Notes: generated by a model from the sequence alone, not told the origin. A stretch of 64,000 nucleotides of DNA from Bacillota bacterium (GCA_014896485.1 JADBKH010000007.1:1-64000); one strand, 5' to 3'. Counted from the first letter of the stretch, positions 1,401 to 17,752 are shown. Translations and numbers: made by a program.

Positions 1401-1429
1401 TTGACAGCGAAGGGGGAAGAGGCTATTAT
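1401..1429 (+). promoter_or_regulatory. sigma-A promoter of the paa operon
   Basis: TTGACA at 1401-1406 and TATTAT at 1424-1429 are separated by exactly 17 bases. This is the best promoter by consensus near the island and lies 55 bases before paaA. Confidence 0.8.
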
Positions 1430-1431
1430 AC

Positions 1432-1445
1432 TTACTAACCAGTAA
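1432..1445. promoter_or_regulatory. palindromic operator, probable TetR-protein site
   Basis: A perfect inverted repeat TTACT-AACC-AGTAA begins two bases after the -10 box and spans the expected transcription start. A weaker outer repeat (ACTTA and TAAGT) extends it. The position is ideal for repression by steric block. The adjacent TetR gene is the likely binder; this is inference. Confidence 0.65.
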
Positions 1446-1483
1446 ATAAGTACGAATGGACTGGGAAGAAAGGGGAGTGTCCC

Positions 1484-2392
1484 ATGAGTGTTTCGGATTT
1501 TGAAGCGTATGTGGCGCAAGGAGGCAAAGTAGACGCGATGGATGAGATGCCCGATGAGTATCGTCAAGCGTTACTCAAAACCATCTCATTCCAAGCGTTG
1601 GCGGAAGTAGTCGGTGCACAAGTCTTTGCAGAGTGGTTGCCCAAGGCACCTACTTTTCTAAGAAAAATGATCTACACGGCCAAGATTCAAGATGAAATCG
1701 GACACGGACATGTACTCATGCGGGTTTGTGAAGATTTGGGGAAAAGCCGTTATGAAATCATGGAGGATTATTTTTCGGGTCGGTTAAAGCTGCTGAGCGT
1801 TTTTCACTATCGAATCGAAGATTGGCTCCATTTTCCGGTCGTCTCTTTGATCAGCAATACGGCTGCAATTACCCAATTCGACTCTTTGGATCATGGAAGT
1901 TATCTTCCGTATGATCGCGCTTTAAAGAAGATTTCAAAGGAAGAGTCTTTTCATTATCATCAAGCCCTCGATCTCAGTCGTACCATTCTTCGATTCGGTA
2001 CAGACGAAGAACGGAAGAGACTCAATGAAGGGCTCAACATTTGGTGGCCACGAGTACTGGGGTATTTTGGACCTTCAGATGACTCCTATTACAGGGAAAC
2101 TCGGAGTTACAAGTACCACATCAAAGTCGATTCCAACGATACGATTCGGCAGCGCTGGATTGACCGCATCGTTTCGGTTTTGAAAAGGCTCGGTCTTACT
2201 GTAGACGATCCACTGCTTCGCAAAGACGAGCAGACCGGGCGATGGAGCTATACGCCTCCCGACTGGGAAGAATGGAAGAATGTTTCCAACGGACATGGTC
2301 CTTTTTCGGAGTATTGGCTCCAAAAGACAAAAGAAGAGTACTACAAGCACGAGTGGGTGCGGAAACTACTTGAAGAAAAACAAGCGGCATGA
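1484..2392 (+). CDS. paaA: ring 1,2-epoxidase catalytic subunit, PaaA-like
   Basis: A 302-residue homologue of PaaA, the di-iron oxygenase subunit that epoxidises the ring of phenylacetyl-CoA; the E. coli protein has 309 residues. The ferritin-like di-iron site is visible as KIQDEIGHGH near residues 68-76 and KEESFHYHQ near 161-169. The family motifs FGPSDD and WWPRV are also present. It is first in an operon with paaB, paaC and paaD, with paaB starting ten bases downstream. Family knowledge says it acts with PaaC as a heterodimer and needs electrons from a PaaE-type reductase, which is not encoded nearby. Benzoyl-CoA or a related thioester is also possible as substrate, given the neighbouring ligase. 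Confidence 0.9.
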   Translation: MSVSDFEAYVAQGGKVDAMDEMPDEYRQALLKTISFQALAEVVGAQVFAEWLPKAPTFLRKMIYTAKIQDEIGHGHVLMRVCEDLGKSRYEIMEDYFSGRLKLLSVFHYRIEDWLHFPVVSLISNTAAITQFDSLDHGSYLPYDRALKKISKEESFHYHQALDLSRTILRFGTDEERKRLNEGLNIWWPRVLGYFGPSDDSYYRETRSYKYHIKVDSNDTIRQRWIDRIVSVLKRLGLTVDDPLLRKDEQTGRWSYTPPDWEEWKNVSNGHGPFSEYWLQKTKEEYYKHEWVRKLLEEKQAA

Positions 2393-2401
2393 GGTGAGCC
2401 A

Positions 2402-2722
2402 ATGGTTGAACCTTACGAAGTTTTTTTGCAGCGTAAACGAGAGGATCGTGCGGTTCATGTGGGCAGCGTTGAAGCCTACTCTTCTGAAAACGCGCTGGAG
2501 ACCGCAAAAGAGATTTATGCTCGCCGAGATATCTGTTTTCGAATCGTAGTGGTTCCGCGATCATGCATGCGGGCTACTTCTTCAGAGGAAGCAGTTTTGT
2601 TTCAGTTATCATTTGCCAAGCAATATCGCAGACCTGCTTTCTTTTCGAAGCGAATGCAGGGTATGAGCGATGAGCCTCCCATTCTTGTCGACGAGTGGAG
2701 GAGTATCGATGAGACCACCTGA
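2402..2722 (+). CDS. paaB: ring 1,2-epoxidase subunit PaaB
   Basis: A 106-residue protein matching the small PaaB subunit (opening VEPYEVFLQRKREDRAVHVGSV, with the typical NALETAKEIYARRD stretch). PaaB bridges PaaA-PaaC heterodimers in the epoxidase complex and carries no cofactor. The N-terminal two thirds are conserved, and the C-terminal tail with Phe and Arg residues is of normal length. It lies ten bases after paaA and overlaps paaC by 14 bases, which suggests translational coupling. Confidence 0.88.
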   Translation: MVEPYEVFLQRKREDRAVHVGSVEAYSSENALETAKEIYARRDICFRIVVVPRSCMRATSSEEAVLFQLSFAKQYRRPAFFSKRMQGMSDEPPILVDEWRSIDETT

Positions 2723-3413
2723 GCAAGCAGAAAAAGACGAACGCTTATTTTACTGGGCCGACGAAGAATACATGGTCGGTCAGCAGCTGGTAACACAGAC
2801 GGGCCTTTATGGACCTGATTTGGAGGAGGCTGTCACGATAGGTTCGATGGCTCAGGACCATTTGGGATATGCATACCAGCTGTTGAAACATCTTGTCTCC
2901 TCAGAGGATCGGGCGATCGATCGATATGTCTACGAGCGCAGTCCAGAGGAATACCATCTGGGACTTTTAGCGCAAGCCTGGGATCCATCGGATTGGGCTC
3001 TGATCGTCGCCAAGGAATATCTGTATGACTCTGTCTGTTTCGTCCGCGCTCAAGACTTAAAAGAGAGCGATTCGATGTTTTCTGGTTTGGCGGAGATGAT
3101 GTTGCGTGAAACGGACTTCCGAATTCGCCATTGGCGCGAGTGGCTGCGCACCCTTGGAAATTTGTCCGAAGGGAGGGAACGTGTCAACAAAGCGCTCGCC
3201 TTTGTTTTACCGATGGCGCAGCAAAGTCTGACACTTCGAGACGGCCGCGGAAGATGGTTTGAGTCGTGCGTTGAAGAGTTAGAGGCGGCTGGATATGCCA
3301 TCCCCAACCCGATCGGTTTTCCTACCGTTTCAGGAGTGCTTTCTACGACTCGGGAATTGCTCGAAGACGCGCATGGTTACTATCGCACACACCCAGAGTG
3401 GGTATGGGGGTGA
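2709..3413 (+). CDS. paaC: ring 1,2-epoxidase structural subunit PaaC
   Basis: A 234-residue PaaC homologue, a ferritin-like helical protein that has lost the di-iron site and holds PaaA in the epoxidase complex. The AQDHLGYAYQLL segment near residues 54-65 and HWREWLRTLG in the middle are typical. ATG at 2709 is chosen as start because GGAGGAG lies five bases upstream; the longer frame from 2670 lies inside paaB without a ribosome site. It overlaps the end of paaB by 14 bases, and paaD follows after five bases. Confidence 0.88.
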   Translation: MRPPEQAEKDERLFYWADEEYMVGQQLVTQTGLYGPDLEEAVTIGSMAQDHLGYAYQLLKHLVSSEDRAIDRYVYERSPEEYHLGLLAQAWDPSDWALIVAKEYLYDSVCFVRAQDLKESDSMFSGLAEMMLRETDFRIRHWREWLRTLGNLSEGRERVNKALAFVLPMAQQSLTLRDGRGRWFESCVEELEAAGYAIPNPIGFPTVSGVLSTTRELLEDAHGYYRTHPEWVWG

Positions 3414-3418
3414 AACCG

Positions 3419-3901
3419 ATGAGCACTGATGTAGACGCGCGAACGATTTGGGAAAGTGTCGAAGGCGTGGAGGACCCAGAACTCCCCATTACCATAGGAG
3501 GGCTTGGAATTGTCGAGGAAATTAAACAACAAAATGGGGAGGTAGAGGTTCACCTCGTTCCGACATTCGTAGGCTGTCCGGCACTCAATGTGATTGAAAA
3601 ACAAGTAAAGGAGAGGGTTGCGGAGATTCCTGGTGTACGTTCGGTTTCAGTCCATTGGGATTTTTCGACCAAATGGAGTCGTGATCGCATTTCAGATTCA
3701 GCTGCCCGAGGCCTTCGAGAGTACGGAGTAGAACGTCCGCAATCGGATGAAATTTGTTGTCCGTATTGCAAAAGCACTCGAGTGCACATCGAGTCCTCCT
3801 ATGGCCCAAGTCTCTGCCGGTCGGTTTACTTTTGTGACGATTGCCACAATCCATTTGAGACCATCAAGGTTTCTTCTCCACGTAGAGAGGTGCTCAATTG
3901 A
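3419..3901 (+). CDS. paaD: PaaD-like Fe-S assembly protein of the epoxidase
   Basis: A 160-residue protein with an N-terminal MIP18/DUF59 domain (VEDPELPITIGGLGIV, with FVGCPALNVIEKQV carrying the conserved Cys). A C-terminal zinc ribbon follows (CCPYCKSTRV and FCDDCHNPF). This is the PaaD architecture, thought to help mature the iron-dependent parts of the phenylacetyl-CoA epoxidase. ATG at 3419 follows a G-rich ribosome site at 3406-3410; a GTG at 3410 overlapping the paaC stop is the alternative start. The next gene starts with TTG inside the stop codon (TTGA). Where paaE is present it usually follows paaD; here an isomerase/hydratase does. Confidence 0.85.
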   Translation: MSTDVDARTIWESVEGVEDPELPITIGGLGIVEEIKQQNGEVEVHLVPTFVGCPALNVIEKQVKERVAEIPGVRSVSVHWDFSTKWSRDRISDSAARGLREYGVERPQSDEICCPYCKSTRVHIESSYGPSLCRSVYFCDDCHNPFETIKVSSPRREVLN

Positions 3902-4716
3902 ATCAAGTTGTATCCGTGGAAATTTCGGCTCCTATAGCAAAACTCCATTTCAATGGACCGCCTGTGAATGCGATGAACCTCGATTTTGTGTCCGGCTTAG
4001 AGATGGCTTTGCAACAAATTGAGGAAGAACCGGAGATTTCGGTCCTTCTTCTATTGAGCGACTTACCAAAAATTTTTTCTGCCGGTGCTGATGCAAAGTG
4101 GTTTGCACAAGTCCTTCAAGAACGCGGTGATAAAGGCTTCGTAGAGACATTTAAGGCTTTTTCTGAACGACTTCGTTCTATTATGTTGCGTTTGCATGAA
4201 GGGCCTTGGTTGTCTATCGCGGTTCTGGATGGTCATGCGGTGGCAGGTGGTATGGAATTGGCCTCAGCTTGTGATTTTCGATTTGCGTCGGACGATGACG
4301 GGCTCCTCTTTTCTTTGCCGGAAGGTTCTCTTTTCGGAGCCATACCCAGTGGGGGTGGTGGAACACAATATCTTGTGCGGTTGCTCGGAGAAGCAGCAAC
4401 GCTTGACCTGATTCTAAGCGGTGCTCAGCTTACGCCTGCTGAAGCTCATCGCATGGGCTGGGTCAACCGCCTTTTTCAAAAAAGCGAATTGTTGCCGCAA
4501 TCTGAAAAGTATGCCTTACAAGTGGGAACCCATGCGACGAGGTTTGCGATTCCTTTTGCCAAGCGGGCACTTTACGGGCTCAGTGGAAAATCGATTGGTG
4601 ATGCGATACACGAGGAACAAGCTTTGTTTTTCAATTCATTGGACAAGATCCCATTTATCGATGGTGTGCGAAACTTTTCCAAACGATATGGCGGGCACGG
4701 AGGTGAGATGGGTTGA
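3898..4716 (+). CDS. enoyl-CoA hydratase/isomerase, PaaF/PaaG type
   Basis: A 272-residue crotonase-fold protein. The two oxyanion-hole segments are FSAGADAKWFAQ (about residues 60-71) and HAVAGGMELASACDF (about 110-125). The first catalytic Glu is kept in SLPEGSLFG. The position of the second catalytic Glu is Asp in TLDLILSG, so this may act as an isomerase rather than a standard hydratase. It starts with TTG in a 4-base overlap with paaD and ends in a 4-base TTGA overlap with the thiolase gene, so the operon is tightly coupled. In the phenylacetate pathway PaaG isomerises the epoxide and PaaF hydrates the opened product; which step this enzyme serves cannot be told by eye. Confidence 0.82.
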   Translation: MNQVVSVEISAPIAKLHFNGPPVNAMNLDFVSGLEMALQQIEEEPEISVLLLLSDLPKIFSAGADAKWFAQVLQERGDKGFVETFKAFSERLRSIMLRLHEGPWLSIAVLDGHAVAGGMELASACDFRFASDDDGLLFSLPEGSLFGAIPSGGGGTQYLVRLLGEAATLDLILSGAQLTPAEAHRMGWVNRLFQKSELLPQSEKYALQVGTHATRFAIPFAKRALYGLSGKSIGDAIHEEQALFFNSLDKIPFIDGVRNFSKRYGGHGGEMG

Positions 4717-5891
4717 GAGATGTCTACGTCGGTGGCGTTGGTATGTCACGCATGGGAAAAAGGCCGGAATCTTCTTTGAAAAGTCTCACTGCTGAAGCGG
4801 TCCAAGAAGCATTGGTAGATATGGACGTAGAGATAGACGCGATTCAGCTTGCAGTATGTGGGAATTCGATGGGTGGTATTTTAAACGGGCAGCACGGAAT
4901 CCGCGGTGAGGTGTTGTTACGTCCTCTTGGATTTGGGGGGTTGCCGATTTGGAACGTCGAAAATGCGTGTGCAACTGGAGCAAATGCATTTCACTTAGCC
5001 TGGGTAGCAGTGGCTTCCGGCTTGGTAGATTGTGCACTGGCTGTTGGCGTGGAAAAGATGAACGTTGAAAAAGAGAAGGTAACCGCAGCTTTACAGGGTG
5101 CGATGGATGCGGAAGAGCGGGAAACCATCCAAAAACTCGGTAACGATCCCTTCATGAGCCTGTACGCCCAGGAGGCGCGTTCGTATCTTGAAGAGCATCA
5201 TCTCGATACGAAAATTCTCGCGAAAGTGTCGCAAAAGAACCACCGCCATGCCAGTCTCAATCCCAAGGCGCAATTTCAGCGAGAGTACGATATTGACGAA
5301 ATCCTACAGTCTCGTATAGTGGCTGATCCGCTGACATTGTTGATGTGTTGTCCGGTAACCGATGGTGCGGCAGCGATGTTGTTGATCAGTCAAAATCGTC
5401 TGTCGGAGAAAAGTCACCATCAAAAAGTCAAGGTGGCCGCTTCCGCGATGCGTTCTGGAGAATTGCCTACAGTTGCGGGGAGATGGCTTTCTTACGGACG
5501 AACGGCTCGCGAAGCATACGCCATGGCAGGTATCGGCCCACACGATATCGGAATCGTAGAAATTCATGAACCGACCGCTTACAACGAATTGAGTGCGCTG
5601 GAGCACATGGGATTGTGTGGGCCTGGAGAAGCAGCGCGCTTGCTTGAAGATGGAGCCACCTCTCTGGAGGGTCGATTGCCCGTCAATCCAAGTGGCGGAT
5701 CGCTTGGCAGAGGCCATGCAATCGGGGCCACTGGAATCGCACAGCTGGTTGAATTAACCACTCAGTTGCTTGGCAAAGCCGGTAGACGACAGGTGCATGA
5801 GACCAAGTATGCCCTTGCGGAAGTGGGGGGCGGCTTTCTAGGCAACGATGCTGCGGCAACGGGGGTAAGCATTTTGCAACGTGTCGATTGA
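4713..5891 (+). CDS. thiolase, SCP-x/SCP2 type
   Basis: A 392-residue thiolase of the SCP-x subgroup rather than the classical acetyl-CoA acetyltransferase group. The nucleophilic Cys is in ENACATGANAF (about residue 87), the His is in EIHEPTAYNEL, and GRGHAIGATG is the C-terminal active-site loop. The classical second Cys motif (CxGxG) is replaced by EVGGGFLGND, as is usual for this subgroup. The start is TTG at 4713, overlapping the hydratase stop as TTGA, with GGAGGTGAG upstream. It would cleave a 3-oxoacyl-CoA from ring opening. A second thiolase of PcaF/PaaJ type lies at 10036, so the two may serve different substrates. Confidence 0.82.
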   Translation: MRDVYVGGVGMSRMGKRPESSLKSLTAEAVQEALVDMDVEIDAIQLAVCGNSMGGILNGQHGIRGEVLLRPLGFGGLPIWNVENACATGANAFHLAWVAVASGLVDCALAVGVEKMNVEKEKVTAALQGAMDAEERETIQKLGNDPFMSLYAQEARSYLEEHHLDTKILAKVSQKNHRHASLNPKAQFQREYDIDEILQSRIVADPLTLLMCCPVTDGAAAMLLISQNRLSEKSHHQKVKVAASAMRSGELPTVAGRWLSYGRTAREAYAMAGIGPHDIGIVEIHEPTAYNELSALEHMGLCGPGEAARLLEDGATSLEGRLPVNPSGGSLGRGHAIGATGIAQLVELTTQLLGKAGRRQVHETKYALAEVGGGFLGNDAAATGVSILQRVD

Positions 5892-5934
5892 ACGGTTCTG
5901 TTTAGCAAGGTCAAAGAGGAGGTGGAGGTGTAAA

Positions 5935-6357
5935 ATGCCGTTCTCCTTTTATTGGAACGTCGCGTTGCCAGATACGGATGCGGCAGGAATTGTTTTTGCT
6001 GGGCGTTTTTTCGAATGGTTTCAAAGGGCAGAGGAGATGATGTTTGCCGAGATGGGCTATCCTTATCGGCAACTCTTTGATACCCATTTTGGAATGCCGG
6101 CTGTACACGTGGAAATTACGTACGATTCCCCACTATTCCTAGGGAGCAAGGCCCTCATTGAACTTTCGGTGAGCAATTTGACGGAGCGTGCTTACACAGC
6201 AGATTTCCACGTAAAAGAAGCAAATGAAGATCGGAAGGTAGCGGAAGGACACATACGGCATCGCTTTGTCACGCTTCTTCAGGGAAAGGGGATAGAAGGG
6301 GTACTTGTAGAAGAGGATTTGAAGAGAGCATTGGAAAAATACGAGAGTATAAGTTAA
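5935..6357 (+). CDS. acyl-CoA thioesterase, 4-hydroxybenzoyl-CoA thioesterase/YbgC family
   Basis: A 140-residue hotdog-fold thioesterase. PDTDAAGIVFAGRFFEWFQ near the N-terminus matches the catalytic Asp loop of 4-hydroxybenzoyl-CoA thioesterases and YbgC. ATG at 5935 is chosen because two overlapping purine-rich sites (AGAGGAGGTGGAGGTG) precede it; the longer frame from 5881 has none. It is the last gene of the paa operon. A thioesterase at the end of an aromatic-CoA operon commonly rescues CoA trapped in dead-end thioesters, as PaaI does in the phenylacetate pathway. That role is inferred. Confidence 0.85.
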   Translation: MPFSFYWNVALPDTDAAGIVFAGRFFEWFQRAEEMMFAEMGYPYRQLFDTHFGMPAVHVEITYDSPLFLGSKALIELSVSNLTERAYTADFHVKEANEDRKVAEGHIRHRFVTLLQGKGIEGVLVEEDLKRALEKYESIS

Positions 6358-6425
6358 CAAAATTTACATTAATATTTGATAGGATAAATAAACACATAGA
6401 AAACTCATAAGGAGGATGGAGAAGG

Positions 6426-8120
6426 ATGAAAGACCATTACCCTACTCTTGAAACGGTCCCGATGGACTGGCTTGTCTCTCCGGAGATGCAGCCTGAATAT
6501 TTGGAGCTCCTGGGATATGATGTTCCAGAAATGACCAATCTTGCCGAGCTTTTTGTAGACAATCGGGTGAGAGAAGGGCTTGGAGAGCACATCGCTGTGA
6601 TCCAAGCCGATGACGATCAGCGCTATACGTATAACGATCTCATGCATGTTAGCATGCGCTTGGCGCATGTACTTAAAAACCTAGGAGTTTTGCCGGGGGA
6701 TCGGGTGGCTATCCGATCCCCCAATCGTGTTGAGGCGTTGACCATGTTTCTCGCAATTTGGCGCGTGGGAGGGATCGCTGTCCTCACTCCGCCGCAAGCC
6801 CGGGCGTCGGAACTGCCGTTCTTCTTAAACGACACCTTGGCGAAAGTGCTGTTTGTCGCAAATAAGGGCGATTATATCGGTGAAACTTTAAAGTGTCAGT
6901 CTGAGTTTCAATCGGTAAGGCATATCGTGGCTTTTCCAGACAATACGGGTACCCCTTATCTCTCTTTGGCGGCGCTTTTGGAAGGTGTTCCCGACTTCTT
7001 TGAAAATCAGTCCATGCCACGCGATTCTTTGGCGGTAATCTGGCACACAGGGGGGACGACAGGTGTTGCCAAAGCCTGCTACCATACGATTCGCCGCGTT
7101 GTCCTCGCGGGATACGCAGGGGCCATAGGTTATGGGGTGTGCGCGGGCGATGTGCATATGATGCCTGCACCTCTGGGGCATGCCGCAGGGTGGCTCTCTC
7201 GCACCAACCTTTCGTTGCTTCATGGAATCACTTTTGTAGAACTTGAAGACTTCACGGATTATTCAAAAATCTTGCGCGCGATTGGTAAGTACCATGTCAC
7301 GTGGTTTATTGCGTTGGCAACCAGTTGGGTTGGGATGTTACATGCATACGAAGAAAGCCCCGGTACGTACAATTTGTCCTCTCTTCAGAGAGCCTACGCT
7401 CCTTTCATCTCTGCCACCGGGGGATGGCTTTACAATGCATGGAAAAACCTGGGGTTCACATTGCTCAATCCGATGGGAAGTACGGCCTTCGCAACTTGGT
7501 TTATTGCTCCCCCATTAAACCAAACAGTTCCCCCGATGTGCCTGGGGAGGCCGAATCCAGGGTACGAAGTACGCATCGTAGATGCAGAATCACAGCATTT
7601 GCAGAATGTCGCTACGGGAGAGATCGGGCGTATCGCTCTCCGAGGTTGTTCTGGACTTACGTATTGGAACAGACCAGAGGTTCAAAATCGAGATGTTCGC
7701 GAAGGGTGGGTTGTCTTAGACGATCTGGGTAAGCAAGATGAGGAAGGGAACCTGTGGTATATGGGGCGCGCGGATATGATGATATCTACCGCCGGGTATA
7801 AAGTTGCGCCGGTAGAGGTAGAAGATGTGATTTCGACACATCCGGCTGTGGAAGAGGTTGCGGTGACGAGTGCTCCGGATGCGGTTCGGGGTGAAGTGGT
7901 GATGGCCTGGATAGTACCCAAAAAAGAGGTGCACCCGGATGCTGCACTTGTAGAAGAGATCCAAAACTACGTAAAAGAGCGTATTTCACCTTACAAGTAC
8001 CCGCGACGCGTCGCTTTTGTGAAAGAGCTTCCACATGATCCGGTAGGCAAGATCATCGTCAAGCTTTTGAAAAACTGGGCGTCGTCTGAAAAGGAACCAG
8101 AAGGTCTTCTATATTGGTGA
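6426..8120 (+). CDS. acyl-CoA ligase, benzoate/2-aminobenzoate-CoA ligase type
   Basis: A 564-residue member of the acyl-adenylate-forming family. The P-loop-like motif WHTGGTTGVAKACYHT is near residues 206-221. The A5-type segment NPMGSTAFATWF, the A8 region around GRADMMISTAGYKVAPVEVED, and the C-terminal lysine in DPVGKIIVK are all present. The N-terminal part (YTYNDLMHVSMRLAHVLKNLGVLPGDRVAIRSPN) resembles benzoate- and 2-aminobenzoate-CoA ligases much more than PaaK, which is shorter and has a different fold order. A ring carboxylate is therefore the likely substrate. The start at 6426 has AAGGAGG a few bases upstream. A 68-base AT-rich gap separates it from the paa operon and could hold its own promoter. 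Confidence 0.85.
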   Translation: MKDHYPTLETVPMDWLVSPEMQPEYLELLGYDVPEMTNLAELFVDNRVREGLGEHIAVIQADDDQRYTYNDLMHVSMRLAHVLKNLGVLPGDRVAIRSPNRVEALTMFLAIWRVGGIAVLTPPQARASELPFFLNDTLAKVLFVANKGDYIGETLKCQSEFQSVRHIVAFPDNTGTPYLSLAALLEGVPDFFENQSMPRDSLAVIWHTGGTTGVAKACYHTIRRVVLAGYAGAIGYGVCAGDVHMMPAPLGHAAGWLSRTNLSLLHGITFVELEDFTDYSKILRAIGKYHVTWFIALATSWVGMLHAYEESPGTYNLSSLQRAYAPFISATGGWLYNAWKNLGFTLLNPMGSTAFATWFIAPPLNQTVPPMCLGRPNPGYEVRIVDAESQHLQNVATGEIGRIALRGCSGLTYWNRPEVQNRDVREGWVVLDDLGKQDEEGNLWYMGRADMMISTAGYKVAPVEVEDVISTHPAVEEVAVTSAPDAVRGEVVMAWIVPKKEVHPDAALVEEIQNYVKERISPYKYPRRVAFVKELPHDPVGKIIVKLLKNWASSEKEPEGLLYW

Positions 8121-8180
8121 ACCCACAAAGGAACACGGTCAGAGTCAGATTTTAATCAATACCTTTTGGAAGGTGTAAAA

Positions 8181-8930: not shown

Positions 8931-9095
8931 AAGCAAAACATAGTTTTATATTGAAAAAAGAGGGATCGGTTTGGCGCTTTAGACAGGCTCGCAAGGGTTG
9001 CCATTGGAGAAGGCAAACATTGCCCTCTTGCTTGACATACAAAATCATCACAAAAACAGGGTACGAGTCGTGCCTGTTCGGAGGATAGGTGGATC

Positions 9096-9110
9096 ACCCA
9101 CGTTGTGGGT
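9096..9110. promoter_or_regulatory. short perfect inverted repeat in the leader of the BadI-like gene
   Basis: ACCCAC-GTT-GTGGGT lies within the 227-base gap (8931-9157) between the SDR-like and BadI-like genes, 47 bases before the latter's start. It could be an operator or an RNA hairpin. The same gap has a TTGACA at 9032-9037 without a matching -10 box. Nothing else is evident in it. Confidence 0.35.
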
Positions 9111-9157
9111 AGTTGGGTAGAAGCTTACAATATCAATGAAGTGAAGGGAGAAGATGG

Positions 9158-9964: not shown

Positions 9965-9975
9965 TGAATGAAAAA

Positions 9976-10005
9976 TCGACACAATAGGGCTATTCACGCT
10001 TATAT
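9976..10005 (+). promoter_or_regulatory. probable promoter of the thiolase gene
   Basis: TCGACA at 9976-9981 and TTATAT at 10000-10005 are 18 bases apart. Transcription would start near 10012, which is downstream of the upstream GTG at 10006 and close to the ribosome site at 10023-10029. Confidence 0.45.
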
Positions 10006-10035
10006 GTGAACATGTGTTCTATGGAGGAGAACCCT

Positions 10036-11241
10036 ACGAGAGAAGCGTTCATCGTCGATGCTGTACGCACGCCCATTGGACGCCATGGCGGGGCTTTGGC
10101 AAGTGTGCGTCCAGACGACTTAGCCGCGTTGGTCATTCGGGCGCTGGTCGATCGCAATCGATTAGTGGAAGACACGATTGATGATGTCTATTTTGGCTGT
10201 GCCAACCAAGCCGGCGAGGACAATCGCAATGTTGCGCGTATGGCACTTTTATTGGCTGGGCTACCGACGAGCGTACCTGGAGCGACTGTAAACCGGCTTT
10301 GCGGTTCTGGTCTAGAGACCGTAGCTGAAGCTGCGCGTGCAGTCATGGTAGGGGAAGGAGACCTGTTCATTGCAGGTGGCGTCGAAAGAATGACGCGGGC
10401 CCCCTACGTTTTGCCAAAACCCGAGCGTGGCTTTGAGCGAGGTATGAGAACACTGTTCGATACAACCCTTGGTTGGCGTATGGTCAATCCAAAAATGCCA
10501 TCTTTGGGGTATGATCCGATCGAGATGGGTGAAACAGCGGAGAATGTCGCTGAACAATACAATATTTCACGCGAATCGCAAGATCGTTTTGCTTTCGAGA
10601 GCCAGCAAAAGACAGCACGAGCCATGCGTGAAGGCTCCTTCGAAGATGAGATCGTCCCTGCTTCCGTGCCGCAGCGAAAAGGGACGCCCAAGTTGGTCAT
10701 CCAAGACGAGCATCCACGCCCGCAAACGACAATAAAGGATCTGGCCAAGTTAAAGCCAGCTTTTCGAGAAAATGGAACGGTCACAGCCGGAAATTCCTCA
10801 GGAATTAATGATGGAGCGACAGCGGTACTGGTCATGTCGCAGGAAAAAGTGGCTCAGCTCGGCTTGACCCCCCTGGCGCGTATCCTTACGACAGCGACGG
10901 CTGGTGTTCATCCCAATTTTATGGGGCTAGGACCCATCCCTGCGACGCAAAAAGCATTAAAGAGAGTGGGACTTTCGATTTCTGATCTGGATCTGATCGA
11001 ACTCAACGAAGTTTTTGCCGCTCAATCTCTTGCATGCATTCAAGAACTTGGTCTTCCCATCGAGACAGTAAACGTCCATGGTGGCGCGATTGCACTCGGT
11101 CACCCATTGGGATGCAGTGGGGCAAGAATCTTGACCACCCTTGTCCATGAGATGAAGCGTCGGCTAACGCGCTATGGCCTGGCCACGATGTGCATTGGGG
11201 TTGGCCAAGGAATTGCGATGGTAGTGGAACGTAACAACTGA
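10036..11241 (+). CDS. 3-oxoacyl-CoA thiolase, PcaF/PaaJ type (apparent ACG start)
   Basis: A thiolase of about 401 residues with classical catalytic groups: NRLCGSG (nucleophilic Cys), ELNEVFAAQSL, GHPLGCSGAR and CIGVGQGI. Opening residues REAFIVDAVRTPIGRHGGAL and the CANQAGEDNRNVARMA segment match 3-oxoadipyl-CoA thiolases (PcaF, PaaJ). These release acetyl-CoA from dicarboxylyl-CoA intermediates, which also suits pimeloyl-CoA beta-oxidation after BadI. The start is odd. GGAGGAG at 10023-10029 points to ACG at 10036, exactly where homologues begin. In-frame GTG 10006, ATG 10012 and ATG 10021 lie before or on top of that site. If ACG is not used, ATG 10021 or 10012 would add 5-8 residues. 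Confidence 0.85.
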   Translation, partial: TREAFIVDAVRTPIGRHGGALASVRPDDLAALVIRALVDRNRLVEDTIDDVYFGCANQAGEDNRNVARMALLLAGLPTSVPGATVNRLCGSGLETVAEAARAVMVGEGDLFIAGGVERMTRAPYVLPKPERGFERGMRTLFDTTLGWRMVNPKMPSLGYDPIEMGETAENVAEQYNISRESQDRFAFESQQKTARAMREGSFEDEIVPASVPQRKGTPKLVIQDEHPRPQTTIKDLAKLKPAFRENGTVTAGNSSGINDGATAVLVMSQEKVAQLGLTPLARILTTATAGVHPNFMGLGPIPATQKALKRVGLSISDLDLIELNEVFAAQSLACIQELGLPIETVNVHGGAIALGHPLGCSGARILTTLVHEMKRRLTRYGLATMCIGVGQGIAMVVERNN

Positions 11242-11250
11242 CCACCTATG

Positions 11251-11279
11251 TTGACTGCTGCGTGAAGAGTTATTCGAAT
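11251..11279 (+). promoter_or_regulatory. probable promoter before the MmgE/PrpD gene
   Basis: TTGACT at 11251-11256 and TCGAAT at 11274-11279 with 17 bases between. The predicted start point near 11286 would exclude the in-frame ATG at 11278 and favour ATG 11326. Confidence 0.45.
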
Positions 11280-11325
11280 GCAAGCGAAGAAATCACCTTT
11301 CATGTCGTTGGGAAGAAGGCTAAGT

Positions 11326-12708
11326 ATGGCAGCTTGGACAGCGCAAGTGAGTCACTGGGTCAGTCATTTGGACTTTGCCGCACTACCTGATCCGGTCATA
11401 GAGGCAGTACGGCGCGCTGTGCTTGATACGGTAGGTTGTCTGATGGCCGGTCGAAAAGAGCCAGTGACACAGATCTTGGAAGAGAAGGCGCTTTTGCAAG
11501 GTGGCCGCGAGGAAGCAACCTTGTTGGGTACCCATGTGCGCTTGCCCGCTGAGGTTGCCGCACTGGTCAACGGAGCAAGTGCACACGCCCTTGATTTCGA
11601 CGATGTCAACAACGCCGTTCAAGGGCATCCGAGCGTAGCTATTTTTCCTGCAGCACTTGCCGCTTGCGAATGGACCGACCGCGACGGGAAGGCGTTGATC
11701 TGCGGCTATGCCGCTGGATTTGAAGTGATGGCCAAACTTGGCGAAGCGATAGGCTACGGTCATTATGAAAAGGGTTGGCATCCTACCGTGACTTTGGGAG
11801 CACTGGGTGCTGCCGCTGCGGCGGGCAACGTGCTGCAGTTGACGCCACAGCAAATGGCGGTGGCATTAAGCCTGGCGGTCTCACAAGCAGCGGGTACACG
11901 CCAAAATTTTGGCACGATGACCAAGCCTTTTCACGCAGGCAATGCTGCCCGTATTGGCGTCTTATCGGCGCGCCTGGCCAAGGCGGGCTTTACAGCAGAT
12001 ACGCATATCCTGGAGGCGCCCTTCGGGTTTTTTGCACTGTACAGCGGAGAGCCAGTCGCAAAGGAGCAAGTATCCACTGCCTTGGCTTCCATTGGAAAAA
12101 AGTGGGCGCTGCTCGAACCAGGCGTGGATGTTAAGAAGTACCCCTGCTGCTACTGGACACATCGTGCTGCCGATGCAGCCTTGGCATTGCGTAAAGAAGA
12201 AGGCGTTCGGTCCGAGGAAATCGAGCAAATCGAAGTGGCTACGCCACCGGGCGGGTTGACAGCGCTGATCTATCCGCAGCCAACGACGGGTTTGGAGGGC
12301 AAGTTCTCCATGGAATATGTCGTCTCGGCTGCTTTTTACGATGGCGCCTTGACTTTTGCGACCTTCACCGATGAAGCGGTGCAGCGCCCTGCATTGCGCG
12401 CTTTGGAGACGAAGGTGAAAAAGGAAGAGCAACCCGCTTTGGCGGACGGGACTGCAACCACTCTCAACAGTGGCCATGTCGTAGTGCGGGTGCATTTGAC
12501 CGATGGGTGTACCGCCGAGCGAAGCGTGATACATCCCTCTGGTTCAGCAAAGCAGCCGCTAAGCTGGGAGCAATTGGTCGAGAAGTTTCGCGACTGTGTG
12601 GATCATGGGGAAGCGCAGTTAAACCTAAAGGTGGCTGTTGAGCGTATTGCAGCGCTGCAGGAGGAGAGCTCCATACGCGATTGGACCGCTTCCCTTGCTT
12701 CAGGCTGA
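11326..12708 (+). CDS. MmgE/PrpD family protein
   Basis: A 460-residue MmgE/PrpD-family protein. These include 2-methylcitrate dehydratase (PrpD), cis-aconitate decarboxylase and several uncharacterised dehydratases or epimerases. Family marks are AVLDTVGCLMAGR near the N-terminus, NGASAHALDFDD (about residues 82-93), HPSVAIFPAALA, KGWHPTVTLGALGAAAAAG, KPFHAGNAARIGVLSARLA and DVKKYPCCYWTHRAADAA. ATG at 11326 follows GGAAGAAGG by six bases; longer starts at 11278 and 11302 lack a site. It precedes a class III CoA-transferase and an HMG-CoA-lyase-like gene. That combination suggests handling of a branched dicarboxylate or tricarboxylate and its CoA ester. The substrate is unknown. Confidence 0.85.
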   Translation: MAAWTAQVSHWVSHLDFAALPDPVIEAVRRAVLDTVGCLMAGRKEPVTQILEEKALLQGGREEATLLGTHVRLPAEVAALVNGASAHALDFDDVNNAVQGHPSVAIFPAALAACEWTDRDGKALICGYAAGFEVMAKLGEAIGYGHYEKGWHPTVTLGALGAAAAAGNVLQLTPQQMAVALSLAVSQAAGTRQNFGTMTKPFHAGNAARIGVLSARLAKAGFTADTHILEAPFGFFALYSGEPVAKEQVSTALASIGKKWALLEPGVDVKKYPCCYWTHRAADAALALRKEEGVRSEEIEQIEVATPPGGLTALIYPQPTTGLEGKFSMEYVVSAAFYDGALTFATFTDEAVQRPALRALETKVKKEEQPALADGTATTLNSGHVVVRVHLTDGCTAERSVIHPSGSAKQPLSWEQLVEKFRDCVDHGEAQLNLKVAVERIAALQEESSIRDWTASLASG

Positions 12709-12781
12709 GTGGGTCCTGGATAGCATGCTGTGGGTTGCGGGGCACAAAAAGCGATACCCTCGTATCTGAAGGGAGGGGGAT

Positions 12782-13924
12782 GTGGGCATCCAGTTGCAAG
12801 GATTGCGCGTGCTTGATCTGACAACCAATATCTCTGGACCGACGCTGACGATGATCCTCGGGGGTCTCGGTGCAGATGTGGTCAAAGTCGAGCGCCCGGA
12901 AGGTGACGATGGGCGGCGGATGGGGCCGTATCTCAACGGCCACGGCACTTATTTTTTGGCGATCAACCGCGACAAGCGCTCCATCCTCGCCGATCTCAAA
13001 AGTGAAACGGGGGCCGCTTTGGTGCGTGCGCTTGCGCAGCAGGCCGATGTGTTGGTGGAAAACTTTCGGCCGGGTACAGCTGAACGGTTGGGCATCGGCT
13101 ACGAGCGTCTCTCACAGAGAAATCCTGGGCTGGTCTACTGCGCTATCTCTGCCTATGGAGAGGTGGGGCCCGATGCGGAGAAACCCGGCTATGATGCGGT
13201 GCTGCAGGCGCGCACGGGAGTGATGTCGATCACCGGTCCCCTCGAGGGAGAGCCGGTGCGTGCAGGCGTCTCCTTGCTCGACGGTGGCAGTGCCTTGTGG
13301 GGCGCCATTGGCGTCTTGGCGGCCTTGGTTCAGCGGCAGCAGACCGGCAAAGGGCAGCGCGTTGCCACCTCCCTCTTTGAGACGGGCGTCTCGTGGATGA
13401 ATTACCATCTGGTCGCTTACCAAGCGACAGGCGTCGACCCTCGTCCACAAGGTGCGAGTCATACCGGTTTTGCCCCCTATGGGCGGTTTGAGACACAGGA
13501 TGCGCCGGTTGTGATCGGCATTTCCAGTGACCGCCTTTTTCAAAAGCTTTGTCGCGCGGTAGGCCACGCGGAGTGGGCAGCAGATCCAGCCTATCTTCAC
13601 AATGCCGAGCGGTTGCAGCACCGTTCGGAGCTCGATGCTGCTCTCAATGCTGTATTGATGGAAAAACCCTATGCGTCCTGGGTTGAAGCATTTGAACGGG
13701 AAGGGGTGCCTTATGCGCCGATTCAGACCGCCTCCCAGGTACTCCATGATCCGCAGACTGCAGCGCTTCAAATGATGCAAGAGGTCGTTTTGCCAGATGG
13801 GACGCATGTGCAGTTGCCGCGGCTTCCCTTGCGTTTTGACAGCCACCGTCCACCCATCCGCCGGCCCCCGCCAGAGCTCGGCGCCGATCAGCAAGAGGTG
13901 CTACACGCCTTGGGGTGGGTGTAA
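12782..13924 (+). CDS. class III CoA-transferase (CaiB/BaiF family)
   Basis: A 380-residue family III CoA-transferase. These enzymes move CoA between carboxylic acids through an aspartyl-CoA intermediate; PGYDAVLQARTG near residues 136-147 carries the expected catalytic Asp. The N-terminal LQGLRVLDLTTNISGP and VVKVERPEGDDGR and the VENFRPGTAERLGIGYE segment are typical. The start is GTG at 12782 directly behind GAAGGGAGGGGGA. The length is near the family norm of about 400. It probably activates an acid produced or used by the MmgE/PrpD enzyme upstream. Strikingly G+C-rich compared with the paa genes. Confidence 0.87.
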   Translation: MGIQLQGLRVLDLTTNISGPTLTMILGGLGADVVKVERPEGDDGRRMGPYLNGHGTYFLAINRDKRSILADLKSETGAALVRALAQQADVLVENFRPGTAERLGIGYERLSQRNPGLVYCAISAYGEVGPDAEKPGYDAVLQARTGVMSITGPLEGEPVRAGVSLLDGGSALWGAIGVLAALVQRQQTGKGQRVATSLFETGVSWMNYHLVAYQATGVDPRPQGASHTGFAPYGRFETQDAPVVIGISSDRLFQKLCRAVGHAEWAADPAYLHNAERLQHRSELDAALNAVLMEKPYASWVEAFEREGVPYAPIQTASQVLHDPQTAALQMMQEVVLPDGTHVQLPRLPLRFDSHRPPIRRPPPELGADQQEVLHALGWV

Positions 13925-13940
13925 GTTTGCGGACGGCTTT

Positions 13941-13957
13941 AGAAGCATTATGCTTCT
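13941..13957. repeat. perfect short inverted repeat between CoA-transferase and lyase genes
   Basis: AGAAGCAT-T-ATGCTTCT, two 8-base arms around one central base, in the 92-base gap before the lyase gene. An operator is as likely as a weak terminator, since no T-run follows. Confidence 0.3.
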
Positions 13958-14016
13958 TATTAAACAGAGAAGCTGAAGCAGCGTAGAAGGGGAATCCAAA
14001 AGAGGAGTGTCTCTCG

Positions 14017-14901
14017 ATGACCTTGCCGCAACGAGTCACCCTGATCGACGTCTGCCTGCGTGATGGATTGCAGGACGAGTCGGTTTTTGTACCTACACAA
14101 GCCAAGCTGCAGCTGCTGGATGCCCTTGCGCGTGCCGGTGTTCTAGAAGCGGAAGTGACTTCTTTTGTCCATCCCAAATGGATTCCTCCCTTGGCCGATG
14201 CAGATGCGTTGGCTGCACGGTTGCCGAACCTTCCACCAATGCGTTTTTGGGCGCTGGTCCCTAACCTTAGGGGATATGAACGCAGCGGCAATGCCCCTCT
14301 TTTCGGCATCACCACCGTCTTGTCGGCGACCGATGCGCACAACCAGGCCAACCTAAACTGCACTTCCCAGGAATCGTTGCGACGCCTAAAGCCGGTCATT
14401 GCAGCGGCCAAAGCGGATGGCCGAAGCGTGCGTGCTGCCATCTCGGTAGTCTTTGGCTGTCCGTTTGAAGGCGAAGTGCCCCTTCAACGGGTCGTCGATC
14501 TCTGCGAACAGCTGACTGCTGCTGGAGCAGATGAATTGGTGCTCTGCGATACGATTGGCGTCGCCCATCCACGACAAGTGGCGGAAGTGATTGGACAAGT
14601 ACGCGCACGCTTGCCGGAGATGCCGCTGACGCTGCACCTGCACGATGCCCGCGGCTTCGGATTGGCCAATATGCTTGCTGGCCTTCAGGAAGGGATCACC
14701 CGCTTTGATACCTCTTTGGGCGGCTTTGGCGGCTGTCCGTATGCACCGGGGGCGCCAGGCAACCTCGCCACCGAACGCGCCAACACTTTTTTGACCGCAA
14801 TGGGCATTGCAACCGACATTGATCAGGCGGCCATCGAAGCGGCGGCTGTGCAGGCGAAGAGCGCTGTCGCTGCGGGAGAACCCATCGACACCAAAGCATA
14901 A
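14017..14901 (+). CDS. hydroxymethylglutaryl-CoA lyase-like enzyme
   Basis: A 294-residue TIM-barrel protein of the HMG-CoA lyase/DRE-TIM group. Metal and catalytic marks are DVCLRDGLQDE (about residues 11-21, with the usual Arg-Asp pair), VTSFVHPKWIPPLADAD, LCDTIGVAHP, LHLHDARGFGLAN and GGFGGCPYAPGAPGNLATE. These lyases split a 3-hydroxy-3-methyl-acyl-CoA into acetyl-CoA and a keto acid. In leucine breakdown the substrate is HMG-CoA, but no methylcrotonyl-CoA carboxylase is present here. The MmgE/PrpD and CoA-transferase neighbours hint at another 3-hydroxy-acid such as a citramalyl- or alkylmalyl-CoA. Start ATG at 14017 follows AGGAG. The acyl-CoA dehydrogenase begins 16 bases downstream. 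Confidence 0.85.
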   Translation: MTLPQRVTLIDVCLRDGLQDESVFVPTQAKLQLLDALARAGVLEAEVTSFVHPKWIPPLADADALAARLPNLPPMRFWALVPNLRGYERSGNAPLFGITTVLSATDAHNQANLNCTSQESLRRLKPVIAAAKADGRSVRAAISVVFGCPFEGEVPLQRVVDLCEQLTAAGADELVLCDTIGVAHPRQVAEVIGQVRARLPEMPLTLHLHDARGFGLANMLAGLQEGITRFDTSLGGFGGCPYAPGAPGNLATERANTFLTAMGIATDIDQAAIEAAAVQAKSAVAAGEPIDTKA

Positions 14902-14917
14902 AATGGGAGGTGAAGGG

Positions 14918-16075
14918 TTGCAGCTGACCGCAGAACAGACAGCACTGTTAGAGACGGTACGCAGCTTTGCCCAGCGGGAGATCAAGCCGATTGTCCATAC
15001 CTACGAGGCCGAAGATCGCTATCCCTCTGAAATTGTAGAGAAGATGCAGGAGCTCGGGCTGTTCGGTTTAAACATCGCGCCCGAGTACGGCGGGGCGGGG
15101 GTCGACACCGTCACCTATGCGTTGGTCTTTGAAGAACTTTCTGCTGTCTGGATGAGTCTGGCGGGGATTTTGGGGACCCATGGCATCATGGCTTACGTGC
15201 TTCAACGCTTCGGCACTGAGGAACAGAAGCGCCGGCTGCTGCCACGCATGGCCAGCGGAGAGCTGCGCGGGGGATTGGGGTTGACCGAGCCCGATGCAGG
15301 TTCGGACGTGCAAAACCTCAAAACAACAGCAGTACGTCAGGGCGATCGCTACGTCTTAAACGGACAGAAGATGTTTATCACCAATTCCCGTTACGGGAGC
15401 GGGCTGCTCGTTTTGGCTCGCACCAATCCTTTGGCGGACAAGCCTTCTCATGGGATGAGCGCTTTTATCGTCGAGCATGACGAACAGACCCCTGGTTACA
15501 TCGTTCGTCGCCCCATTCACAAGCTTGGGTATAAGGGGGTCGAGACGTGCGAGCTCTCTTTTGAAGATCTGCAGGTGCCTCAAGAAAACCTGGTCGGGGG
15601 TGAAGAAGGCCATGGTTTTGCACAAGTGATGAGCGGGCTTGAAGTGGGACGCATCAATGTTGCGGCCCGTGCGGTGGGCGTTGCGCGGGCTGCTTTTGAA
15701 GAAGCTGTGCGTTACGCCCAACAACGCCAGACTTTCGGCCAGCCGATTGCGCAACATCAAGCGATTCAGCTGCTGTTGGCCGATATGTACACCCAGTTGA
15801 GCGCTGCGCGGCATCTGTACATCGACGCAGCCGAAAAGAAGGATCGGGGCCAACGGGCGGACCTGGAGGCCGGCATGGCCAAACTCTTTGCCAGTGAGAT
15901 GTGTGGCAAAGTGACCCTCGATGCCATGCGGATTCATGGCGGTTATGGATATACTACTGATTTCAATGTCGAGCGCTACTACCGTGATGCCCCGCTGATG
16001 ATCATCGGAGAAGGCACCAATGAGATCCAGCGTACTGTGATCGCCCGTCAACTTCTGCAGCGTTACAGAGTATAG
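14918..16075 (+). CDS. acyl-CoA dehydrogenase (candidate cyclohexanecarboxyl-CoA dehydrogenase)
   Basis: A 385-residue FAD-dependent acyl-CoA dehydrogenase. GGLGLTEPDAGSDVQNLKTTA and FITNSRYGSG are FAD-contact segments. RQTFGQPIAQHQAIQ, MRIHGGYGYTTDFNVERYYRDA and IIGEGTNEIQR (catalytic Glu position) complete the family set. TTG at 14918 is the best start, seven bases after GGAGG at 14906-14910; ATG at 14903 lies in front of that site. Followed by an enoyl-CoA hydratase (14 bases away) and a BadH-type dehydrogenase, it fits the first oxidation of cyclohexanecarboxyl-CoA (BadJ/AliB role) or of a straight-chain acyl-CoA. The role is inferred from neighbours. Confidence 0.85.
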   Translation: MQLTAEQTALLETVRSFAQREIKPIVHTYEAEDRYPSEIVEKMQELGLFGLNIAPEYGGAGVDTVTYALVFEELSAVWMSLAGILGTHGIMAYVLQRFGTEEQKRRLLPRMASGELRGGLGLTEPDAGSDVQNLKTTAVRQGDRYVLNGQKMFITNSRYGSGLLVLARTNPLADKPSHGMSAFIVEHDEQTPGYIVRRPIHKLGYKGVETCELSFEDLQVPQENLVGGEEGHGFAQVMSGLEVGRINVAARAVGVARAAFEEAVRYAQQRQTFGQPIAQHQAIQLLLADMYTQLSAARHLYIDAAEKKDRGQRADLEAGMAKLFASEMCGKVTLDAMRIHGGYGYTTDFNVERYYRDAPLMIIGEGTNEIQRTVIARQLLQRYRV

Positions 16076-16089
16076 GGTGGGGGAAACCA

Positions 16090-16902
16090 TTGGCTGTGCA
16101 GCTATCTGCTTGGGAGAGTCACCGCTGGAAGTTTCTTCTCGCGGAAAAGCTTGGTGATTTTGTTGCCTCGATTACCTTGAATCGCCCCGAAGTCCGCAAT
16201 GCTTTCCATTCAGCCATGGTCGAAGAATGGCTGGCCTGTTTTACCTTACTGGCCGATGAGCCTCAGGTACGTGCCGTGGTGATCAGTGGCGCAGGTGGGA
16301 GCTTTTGCGCTGGAGCCGACCTCAAGGAGCGCAATGCGCTGGATGTGCAGGCTTGGCATGCGCAACATCGCTTGTTTGACCGAGCGTTTGAGGCGCTGCG
16401 CAGTCTACCGATGATGACCATCGCTGCCGTAGAGGGAGCTGCAATGGGCGGTGGTTTCGAACTGGCGCTGGCTTGCGATCTCATGGTTGCTGCAGAAGGG
16501 GCCCGATTCGCCTTTCCTGAAGTCAAACGTGGCCTGATTCCTGGAGAAGGGGGCACCCAAGTGCTGGCACGACGGGTGGGTCCTGGGCGAGCCAAGCTTT
16601 ACTTGGCGAGTGGGCGGACGATCGATGCTGAGGAAGCCGAACGCATGGGGATTGCCGATCTATATGCACCTGCCGGGAAGGCGGTAGAAGTAGCCAGAGG
16701 ATTGGCGGACGAGATTGTGGTCAATGCGCCCCTTGCGGTGGCCCAGGCCAAACGTGCGGTTGACCTCGGTTTGGGCTTGCCGTTGGCCGAAGGTGTAGCG
16801 ATCGAGCGAGAGCTCTACCGTCCTTTGGTCGATACCCAAGATCGGCGGGAAGGGGTGCGGGCTTTTGTCGAAAAGCGTGCACCTCAGTTTGTCGGACACT
16901 AA
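16090..16902 (+). CDS. enoyl-CoA hydratase (BadK-like role)
   Basis: A 270-residue crotonase-fold hydratase. SFCAGADLKERN (oxyanion hole 1), AAVEGAAMGGGFELALACDL (oxyanion hole 2) and FPEVKRGLIPGEGGTQ with the first catalytic Glu are present. The second Glu position reads AKLYLASGRT and is not conserved. The ending REGVRAFVEKRAPQF is typical. TTG at 16090 follows a G-run ribosome site, 14 bases after the dehydrogenase stop. Between acyl-CoA dehydrogenase and BadH-type genes it is placed to hydrate cyclohex-1-ene-carboxyl-CoA, as BadK does. Substrate specificity cannot be read directly. Confidence 0.83.
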   Translation: MAVQLSAWESHRWKFLLAEKLGDFVASITLNRPEVRNAFHSAMVEEWLACFTLLADEPQVRAVVISGAGGSFCAGADLKERNALDVQAWHAQHRLFDRAFEALRSLPMMTIAAVEGAAMGGGFELALACDLMVAAEGARFAFPEVKRGLIPGEGGTQVLARRVGPGRAKLYLASGRTIDAEEAERMGIADLYAPAGKAVEVARGLADEIVVNAPLAVAQAKRAVDLGLGLPLAEGVAIERELYRPLVDTQDRREGVRAFVEKRAPQFVGH

Positions 16903-16993
16903 AGCAATGGAGAGAAATATCGGCAAGCAAAATGCGTGATCAAACGCATTGATCGCCCATTTCTACGGTGGGCTTTCAGAGGAGTGTATGGCG

Positions 16994-17752
16994 ATGAAAC
17001 GATTGGGCGGAAAAGTTTCGCTGATTACCGGCGCTGGACGTGGCATCGGCCGGGGGATTGCCGAAAAGTTTGCAGTTGAAGGTGCGCGGGTGGTTGTTGC
17101 CGATATTGACGAAACGGCCGCCAAAAAAAGTGCTGAAGAACTAACTTCTGCCTATCAGGTAGAGACGCTCGGCTTGTTTTGTGATGTCACCTCGCAAGAA
17201 TCGGTCAACCAAACTGTGGAACAGGTCAAACAGCGTTTTGGGCGAATCGATGTGTTGGTCAACAATGCGGGATGGGACAAGGTGGAGCCTTTCTTGGAGA
17301 GCGAAGAGAGAACCTGGGATCGTGTGATCCAAATCAATCTCTATGGTCTGTTGCATACGTGTAAGGCCGTCTTGCCCGAAATGATCGCACAAGGCAACGG
17401 CACGGTGATCAATATTGGTTCGGACGCCGGACGGGTGGGCTCCTCAGGAGAGGCGGTTTATTCGGCAACCAAAGGAGGAGTAATCGCGTTTACCAAAACA
17501 CTGGCGCGGGAGATGGCTCGGCATCAGATCAACGTCAATTGTGTCTGCCCAGGCCCGGCAGACACGCCGCTTTTTTCGGAGATCAGCTCGTACAACTCGA
17601 AGATTGCCGATGCCTTAAAGCGCAGCATTCCGTTTCGCCGCTTGGCTAAACCGCAAGATATTGCCAACGCCGTGGCTTTTTTGGCCTCGGATGAGGCGTC
17701 GTACATCACCGGACAGACGCTTTCAGTCAGTGGCGGATTGACCATGGTGTAG
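16994..17752 (+). CDS. badH: 2-hydroxycyclohexanecarboxyl-CoA dehydrogenase (BadH-type SDR)
   Basis: A 252-residue short-chain dehydrogenase with an intact catalytic set: Asn115, Ser143, Tyr156, Lys160. TGAGRGIG (12-19) binds NAD(P). NNAGWDKVEPF, SDAGRVGSSGEAVYSATKGG, CPGPADTPLF and SYITGQTLSVSGGLTM are unusually close to my memory of R. palustris BadH, which oxidises 2-hydroxycyclohexanecarboxyl-CoA to the 2-keto thioester for ring opening by BadI. ATG at 16994 sits nine bases after AGAGGAG; ATG 16988 is too close to that site. It follows a hydratase and precedes a GalT-like gene by 15 bases. The function is fairly confident given a BadI-like gene in the same island. Confidence 0.85.
   Translation: MKRLGGKVSLITGAGRGIGRGIAEKFAVEGARVVVADIDETAAKKSAEELTSAYQVETLGLFCDVTSQESVNQTVEQVKQRFGRIDVLVNNAGWDKVEPFLESEERTWDRVIQINLYGLLHTCKAVLPEMIAQGNGTVINIGSDAGRVGSSGEAVYSATKGGVIAFTKTLAREMARHQINVNCVCPGPADTPLFSEISSYNSKIADALKRSIPFRRLAKPQDIANAVAFLASDEASYITGQTLSVSGGLTMV

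Follow-up and report, generated by a model that had tools for sequence, protein, structure and literature searches.

Why does a bacterium of the phylum Bacillota carry genes for an oxygenase of the PaaABCD family on the same strand as genes of the BadH and BadI types, and do the two sets serve one route? The locus lies in a 64,000-nucleotide stretch (the window; GCA_014896485.1 JADBKH010000007.1:1-64000) that forms the first 64 kb of contig C63 in a 2.17-Mb draft genome, 96% complete and alone in its family among the sampled genomes. Between positions 758 and 17752 every gene is on the + strand, in one long cluster running from a TetR-family regulator through badH. Window base 1 is also contig base 1, and the assembly cuts off the left end of the island; 3' of badH there is a GalT-like gene followed by the core genes miaB and mutS, identified by sequence.

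We conclude that the catabolic island is real and composite, that its Paa oxygenase is a new variant, and that its BadH/BadI half, in an apparently aerobic host, is of a kind already known in aerobic Gram-positive bacteria. An earlier note, made from the sequence alone, had proposed a composite route for ring acids, and for alicyclic acids this is supported as probable. Its gene list is confirmed in part, with co-directional open reading frames at 1484-17752 that encode PaaA, PaaB, PaaC and PaaD family proteins, two crotonases, two thiolases, an AMP-forming ligase, a BadI/MenB-type hydrolase, an acyl-coenzyme A (acyl-CoA) dehydrogenase and a BadH-type short-chain dehydrogenase/reductase (SDR) with YxxxK. 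To these we add the TetR regulator (758), a thioesterase (5881), a further SDR (8166), an MmgE/PrpD protein (11278), a CoA-transferase (12782) and a 3-hydroxy-3-methylglutaryl-CoA (HMG-CoA) lyase (14017). The contrast that it drew between aerobic Paa enzymes and Bad enzymes is weaker than claimed, as bad-ali clusters are also found in Gram-positive bacteria and in aerobes and function under oxic conditions (PMC9795900).

A divergent PaaABCD-like oxygenase

1484-2392, + strand: PaaA-like catalytic di-iron subunit of a divergent clade (E. coli Asp126 to Asn, Glu49 to Phe)
2402-2722, + strand: PaaB-like subunit (PF06243, 64.7 bits; under the TIGR02157 cut-off)
2709-3413, + strand: PaaC-like structural subunit, shortened (PF05138; 75 bits against a cut-off of 133; alignment)
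3398-3901, + strand: PaaD, Fe-S maturation type (TIGR02159, 123.6 bits, above cut-off)
3898-4716, + strand: crotonase ECH1, which probably partners the oxygenase as isomerase/hydratase (36% to the crotonase immediately 3' of paaD in the metagenome-assembled genome Bu37, Alicyclobacillaceae)

The label paaABCD given in the earlier note stands for PaaD, which exceeds its NCBIfam cut-off (124 against 108 bits), and does not stand for PaaA (265/280), PaaB (49/85) or PaaC (75/133), all of which fall under theirs. Sequence similarity to PaaA of solved structure extends over the full length and makes the PaaA-like fold clear. In E. coli PaaA, whose numbering is used here, the di-iron ligands are Glu42, Glu72 and His75 together with Asp126, Glu155 and His158 (PMC7497051), and a "lysine bridge" joins Lys68 with Glu49, Glu72 and Asp126 (PMC4498308). 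In a tree that includes a wide range of canonical PaaA proteins, the window protein groups on a long branch (100/100) with relatives from a Chloroflexi contig (50%, L084), Bu37 (49%, L064/L083, G071) and a Streptomyces plasmid (45%, L171), giving a four-member clade that spans three phyla. All four retain Glu42, Glu72, His75, Glu155, His158 and Lys68. Asp126 is replaced by Asn in the window protein (Asn125, in an ungapped alignment) and its three relatives, Glu49 by Phe or Ser in all four (Phe48 in the window), and all four have Gln37 where 111 of 111 canonical PaaA proteins have His37. Glu49 (alignment position 48) is likewise kept in all 111 canonical proteins, and Asp126 was read in 106, its motif being unmatched, and hence unread, in the other five.

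The island shares with phenylacetyl-CoA epoxidase PaaABC(D)E the subunit set, the order A-B-C-D, five di-iron ligands and Lys68, but it differs in the two substitutions, in its clade and in lacking detectable partners: neither PaaE nor the PaaK ligase was found in the genome (best PaaK match 22.6 bits against a cut-off of 646). The lack of PaaE counts for little, as the paa operon of genome G040 also showed none by eye. PaaZ was not seen in the island, and the genome outside the island was not searched for it. Because PaaA, PaaB and PaaC fall under their cut-offs, the clade is separate, Asp126 and Glu49 are lost and PaaK is missing, the window complex is, as judged by its defining sequence features, not a phenylacetyl-CoA epoxidase but a member of a divergent clade in which Asp126 has become Asn and the lysine bridge is dismantled. 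The earlier suggestion that these Paa genes act on phenylacetyl-CoA is therefore not supported. Most likely the complex is an oxygenase that acts on a CoA ester and works like phenylacetyl-CoA epoxidase.

The clade is small. Window PaaA alone as query gave no match in 85,000 species genomes; a two-sequence alignment brought up the Chloroflexi member, and a clade profile run against 399 Bacillota genomes returned, besides the window, only canonical PaaA. The PaaC-like subunit is without ~25 residues of a region found in its relatives (alignment). A second PaaA match in the host genome (C18:5532) was rejected as a second epoxidase, being a distant single protein of 82 bits. By eye, a lone distant PaaA/PaaC-like protein on C18 (L071 2896-6239, host genome G000) lies near an adenine-deaminase-like amidohydrolase, and an adenine-deaminase-like gene is also found 5' of paaABCD in Bu37 (L064 930-2714). 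The Streptomyces plasmid cluster (L171 6850-17361, NZ_CP120998.1) looks biosynthetic; it encodes two KAS III proteins, the divergent PaaA, a PaaB-PaaC fusion, PaaD, an SDR, a crotonase, a ligase, a transporter and a P450.

BadI and BadH

8166-8930, + strand: SDR1, an SDR-fold protein without the catalytic Ser, Tyr and Lys, directly 5' of badI
9158-9964, + strand: BadI, 2-oxocyclohexanecarboxyl-CoA hydrolase type (synteny, residues, trees)
16949-17752, + strand: BadH, 2-hydroxycyclohexanecarboxyl-CoA dehydrogenase type (57-75% to the SDR beside badI in relatives; YxxxK intact)

Profile scores for the 9158 protein are ambiguous, with two MenB models over their cut-offs (400/380 and 379/343 bits) and the BadI model TIGR03210 under (370/467.6). 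Its closest homologues (63-76%) adjoin a homologue of the 16949 protein (57-72%) in seven genomes (G040, G005, G020, G028, G029, G006 and G047), at loci that mostly also hold a ligase and a dehydrogenase and are bad-ali clusters; several of these genomes have a second, MenB-like copy located away from the cluster. The closest BadI and BadH found are both in Bu37 (79% and 75%), where badI again adjoins the badH homologue. In the tree, 24 MenB proteins split off together with 9158 excluded (98/100), and of six positions at which fixed differences separate 12 BadI from 24 MenB proteins, 9158 matches BadI at five. MenD was not found over cut-off in the genome (best 59 against 244 bits). Because of synteny, residues, tree and the missing MenD, we assign 9158 to the true BadI type on sequence grounds, its context settling the ambiguous model scores. 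In the host genome proteins of the MqnA/MqnD type were, like MenD, not found.

BadH is closest in the tree to the BadH proteins of Bu37 and G040, and its catalytic residues are intact by alignment; it scores under the NCBIfam BadH cut-off (306 against 431). Homology, synteny and residues together identify 16949-17752 as BadH type. The earlier note's identification of both enzymes stands, and the phylogenetic check that it proposed places 9158 not inside MenB and the BadH-type SDR not outside BadH, although an approximately unbiased (AU) test (p 0.14) does not firmly reject a place for 9158 beside MenB. The two genes are ~7 kb apart, badI lying on the paa side, 5' of a PaaJ-type thiolase.

In SDR1 the motif SxxxR replaces YxxxK, and the catalytic Ser is also lost. 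The same Tyr-to-Ser and Lys-to-Arg changes occur in the SDR1 homologue of G020 (L067 2417-3232) and in SDRs directly 5' of BadI paralogues in G040 (L073 6848-7675) and G013 (L080 10251-11024), so that a conserved altered SDR accompanies BadI-type hydrolases. BadI-type hydrolases also cluster with a CoA ligase and with subunits resembling those of acetone/acetophenone carboxylases (L073 417-10632 in G040; L201 2862-17120 in Bu37). Such clusters would fit a route in which a cyclic ketone is carboxylated, activated with CoA and then opened by a BadI-type hydrolase; we found no paper on cyclic-ketone carboxylation ahead of BadI.

Further enzymes and a proposed route

4713-5891, + strand: SCP-x-type thiolase (PRK06064 family, 306 bits; Cys and GHA motifs present)
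5881-6357, + strand: hotdog acyl-CoA thioesterase (4HBT_2, Pfam)
6426-8120, + strand: AMP-forming acyl-CoA ligase (26-30% to the ligases of other bad clusters; P-loop and C-terminal Lys present)
10006-11241, + strand: PaaJ/PcaF-type 3-oxodicarboxyl-CoA thiolase (600 against 605 bits; 67-68% to the paa-operon thiolases of G040 and G020)
11278-12708, + strand: MmgE/PrpD family protein (far under the PrpD equivalog cut-offs)
12782-13924, + strand: class III (CaiB-type) CoA-transferase
14017-14901, + strand: HMG-CoA lyase (NF004283, 326 bits, cut-off 246)
14897-16075, + strand: acyl-CoA dehydrogenase (catalytic EGT motif; 42% to the dehydrogenase 3' of badH in G020)
16090-16902, + strand: enoyl-CoA hydratase ECH2, possible BadK

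The ligase had been called benzoate-type, a label it does not keep: the benzoate model TIGR02262 gives 192 bits against a cut-off of 375 and the AliA model 175 against 792, with generic fatty-acyl models scoring higher. It was also rejected as an orthologue of the Bu37 or AliA ligases (identity 26-30%). In G020 a CoA-transferase, a dehydrogenase, an HMG-CoA lyase and the SDR1 homologue lie ~7 kb from badI.

The reading that we prefer, with its chances about evenly balanced, is that the island is aerobic, is controlled by TetR and serves to degrade a six-membered alicyclic acid in CoA-dependent steps; an acid bearing an alkyl or alkenyl side group, of the monoterpenoid or naphthenic type, is the most likely substrate. 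The ligase would make the CoA ester. An oxygen function at C2 could come from dehydrogenation and hydration (14897 and 16090), from the divergent PaaABCD with ECH1, or from both. BadH would then oxidize the 2-hydroxy ester, and BadI would open the ring of the resulting 2-oxo ester hydrolytically to give a pimeloyl-type CoA ester, which the dehydrogenase, hydratase and PaaJ-type thiolase would shorten. An unsubstituted ring ends as glutaryl-CoA by beta-oxidation, and HMG-CoA lyase is not needed. A side group at C4 of the ring would instead lead to 3-substituted glutaryl-CoA, to be dehydrogenated, hydrated and cleaved by the HMG-CoA lyase, and the CoA-transferase and SCP-x thiolase may handle the branched oxo acid released. 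We infer from the HMG-CoA lyase, the CoA-transferase, the thiolase of branched type and, perhaps, the MmgE/PrpD protein that a substituted ring acid fits better than benzoate or plain cyclohexanecarboxylate.

Related schemes are known for monoterpenes. For Castellaniella, opening of the monoterpene ring by enzymes of the BadH/BadI type has been proposed (PMC4109377), and in limonene degradation dehydrogenation, hydration and HMG-type cleavage have been proposed to follow a BadI-type opening (PMC12583861). The island has this ring opening in common with the mrc genes of Castellaniella defragrans (PMC4109377) and with lrc (PMC12583861), and resembles lrc further in the predicted HMG-type cleavage of 3-substituted glutaryl-CoA and in its CoA-transferase. 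However, mrc and lrc act without oxygen and no Paa-like oxygenase is described for them, whereas the island has one; LrcC is described as a member of the HMG-CoA synthase superfamily, whereas the island has an HMG-CoA lyase.

Regulation

758-1336, + strand: TetR-family regulator (TetR_C_24, Pfam)
1401-1429, + strand: promoter-like TTGACA-17-TATTAT 5' of paaA (11/12 consensus matches; a consensus match only)
1430-1447, strand-neutral: probable TetR operator, palindrome TTACTaaccAGTAA (sole exact TTACTN4AGTAA in the genome)

Promoter-like and terminator-like sites across the region are, overall, at chance level, and the site just 5' of paaA is the only one used here because it is backed by the unique palindrome directly 3' of it. 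This palindrome is probably the TetR operator, a prediction from its position and sequence. TetR genes also adjoin the divergent paaABCD genes in Bu37 and in the Chloroflexi contig. Most junctions in the cluster are overlaps or shorter than 100 bp, the single long internal gap being 228 bp, 5' of badI. The single regulon envisaged in the earlier note is thus plausible in view of one strand, short gaps and one promoter with its operator, and the gap before badI is the part that does not agree with it.

One pathway or two neighbors

Bu37, the other member of the Bacillota with the divergent oxygenase, also holds badHI, and from one operon and this one co-occurrence the link between oxygenase and BadHI is suggestive only. 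Several points weigh against a joint route for a substituted ring. In Bu37 one contig carries the oxygenase and another carries badHI. No BadI was found for the Chloroflexi member (the best match in its genome, 60%, adjoins a MenD-like gene by eye, L198) or on the Streptomyces plasmid, and because of these two members the oxygenase is not tied to BadI. The island may have been put together from two sources, because GC content steps from ~0.50 (paa to badI) to 0.56-0.60 (11.3-16.9 kb); gene by gene, values are 0.46-0.53 for paaA through the 10-11 kb thiolase and 0.56-0.60 for MmgE through ECH2. Orthologues of AliA and AliB are not in the island (26% and 32% to those of G040), and the best matches elsewhere in the genome reach 35% and 39%. 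To these are added the 228-bp gap, an AU test that does not reject forcing 9158 into the MenB side, and a choice of substrate drawn from gene content only.

There is a serious, if minority, chance that the locus holds an ordinary cyclohexanecarboxylate (bad-ali) route with a non-orthologous ligase and dehydrogenase, and that the PaaABCD-like oxygenase, ECH1, SCP-x thiolase and thioesterase form a separate neighboring pathway on the same strand. A ligase, dehydrogenase, hydratase, BadH and BadI are present and in principle enough (PMC9795900), and the island shares BadH and BadI types and these further genes with bad-ali of Rhodopseudomonas palustris and Aromatoleum sp. CIB (PMC9795900), and a TetR-type regulator with Gram-positive bad-ali clusters. 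The GC shift, the gap, the separate contig in Bu37 and the oxygenases without BadI all fit such a division. However, badI lies on the paa side and badH 7 kb off, the junctions are overlapping or short, badHI is present in each of the two sampled Bacillota genomes that encode the oxygenase, and unsubstituted cyclohexanecarboxylate needs neither the HMG-CoA lyase nor the CoA-transferase, which, like the oxygenase, are additions relative to bad-ali.

It is improbable that the divergent PaaABCD is an aromatic acyl-CoA epoxidase acting on benzoyl-CoA or a similar ester, followed by crotonase steps and BadI as ring hydrolase. BoxB benzoyl-CoA epoxidase is likewise a di-iron oxygenase acting on a ring acyl-CoA, the Bu37 gene order (oxygenase, crotonase, aldehyde dehydrogenase) is reminiscent of an epoxidase, a ring hydrolase and a semialdehyde dehydrogenase, and Bu37 also has an acetophenone-carboxylase-like cluster. 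But the window protein is nearer PaaA than BoxB, no BoxC/BoxD set adjoins it, the island is without an aldehyde dehydrogenase, the ligase is not benzoate-type by model score, and BadI requires a 2-oxo alicyclic ester, which epoxidized benzoyl-CoA does not directly give.

A drifted standard phenylacetate pathway with inserted Bad genes is very unlikely: the PaaD score and the 67-68% match of the PaaJ-type thiolase to paa-operon thiolases would suit it, and the missing PaaE is not decisive, but the low scores of PaaA, PaaB and PaaC, the loss of Asp126 and Glu49 and a genome without PaaK speak against it. That 9158 is the genome's MenB, for menaquinone synthesis, is scarcely credible and was rejected on tree, residues, synteny and the missing MenD, with the MenB and BadI model scores and the AU result (p 0.14) on its side.

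Returning to the preferred reading of an island for a substituted alicyclic acid, its boldest part is that the clade oxygenase, with Asn at a ligand position and no lysine bridge, oxygenates an alicyclic acyl-CoA ring and so feeds BadH and BadI, an oxygen-dependent entry to a route known only as oxygen-independent. We regard this as tentative and rather doubtful; no paper was found that pairs Paa-type oxygenases with Bad genes.

Implications

PaaA and PaaC serve as genome markers of phenylacetate degradation (PMC13186573). The PaaA clade with an altered metal site, found in the window's genome without PaaK, breaks this marker rule, and through it nature provides a way to test the roles of Asp126 and the lysine bridge. 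With the metal site altered, oxygen may act on rings in a manner so far undescribed. Should the oxygenase indeed feed BadH and BadI, aerobic bacteria would have a second way into saturated rings, for example those of naphthenic and monoterpenoid acids.

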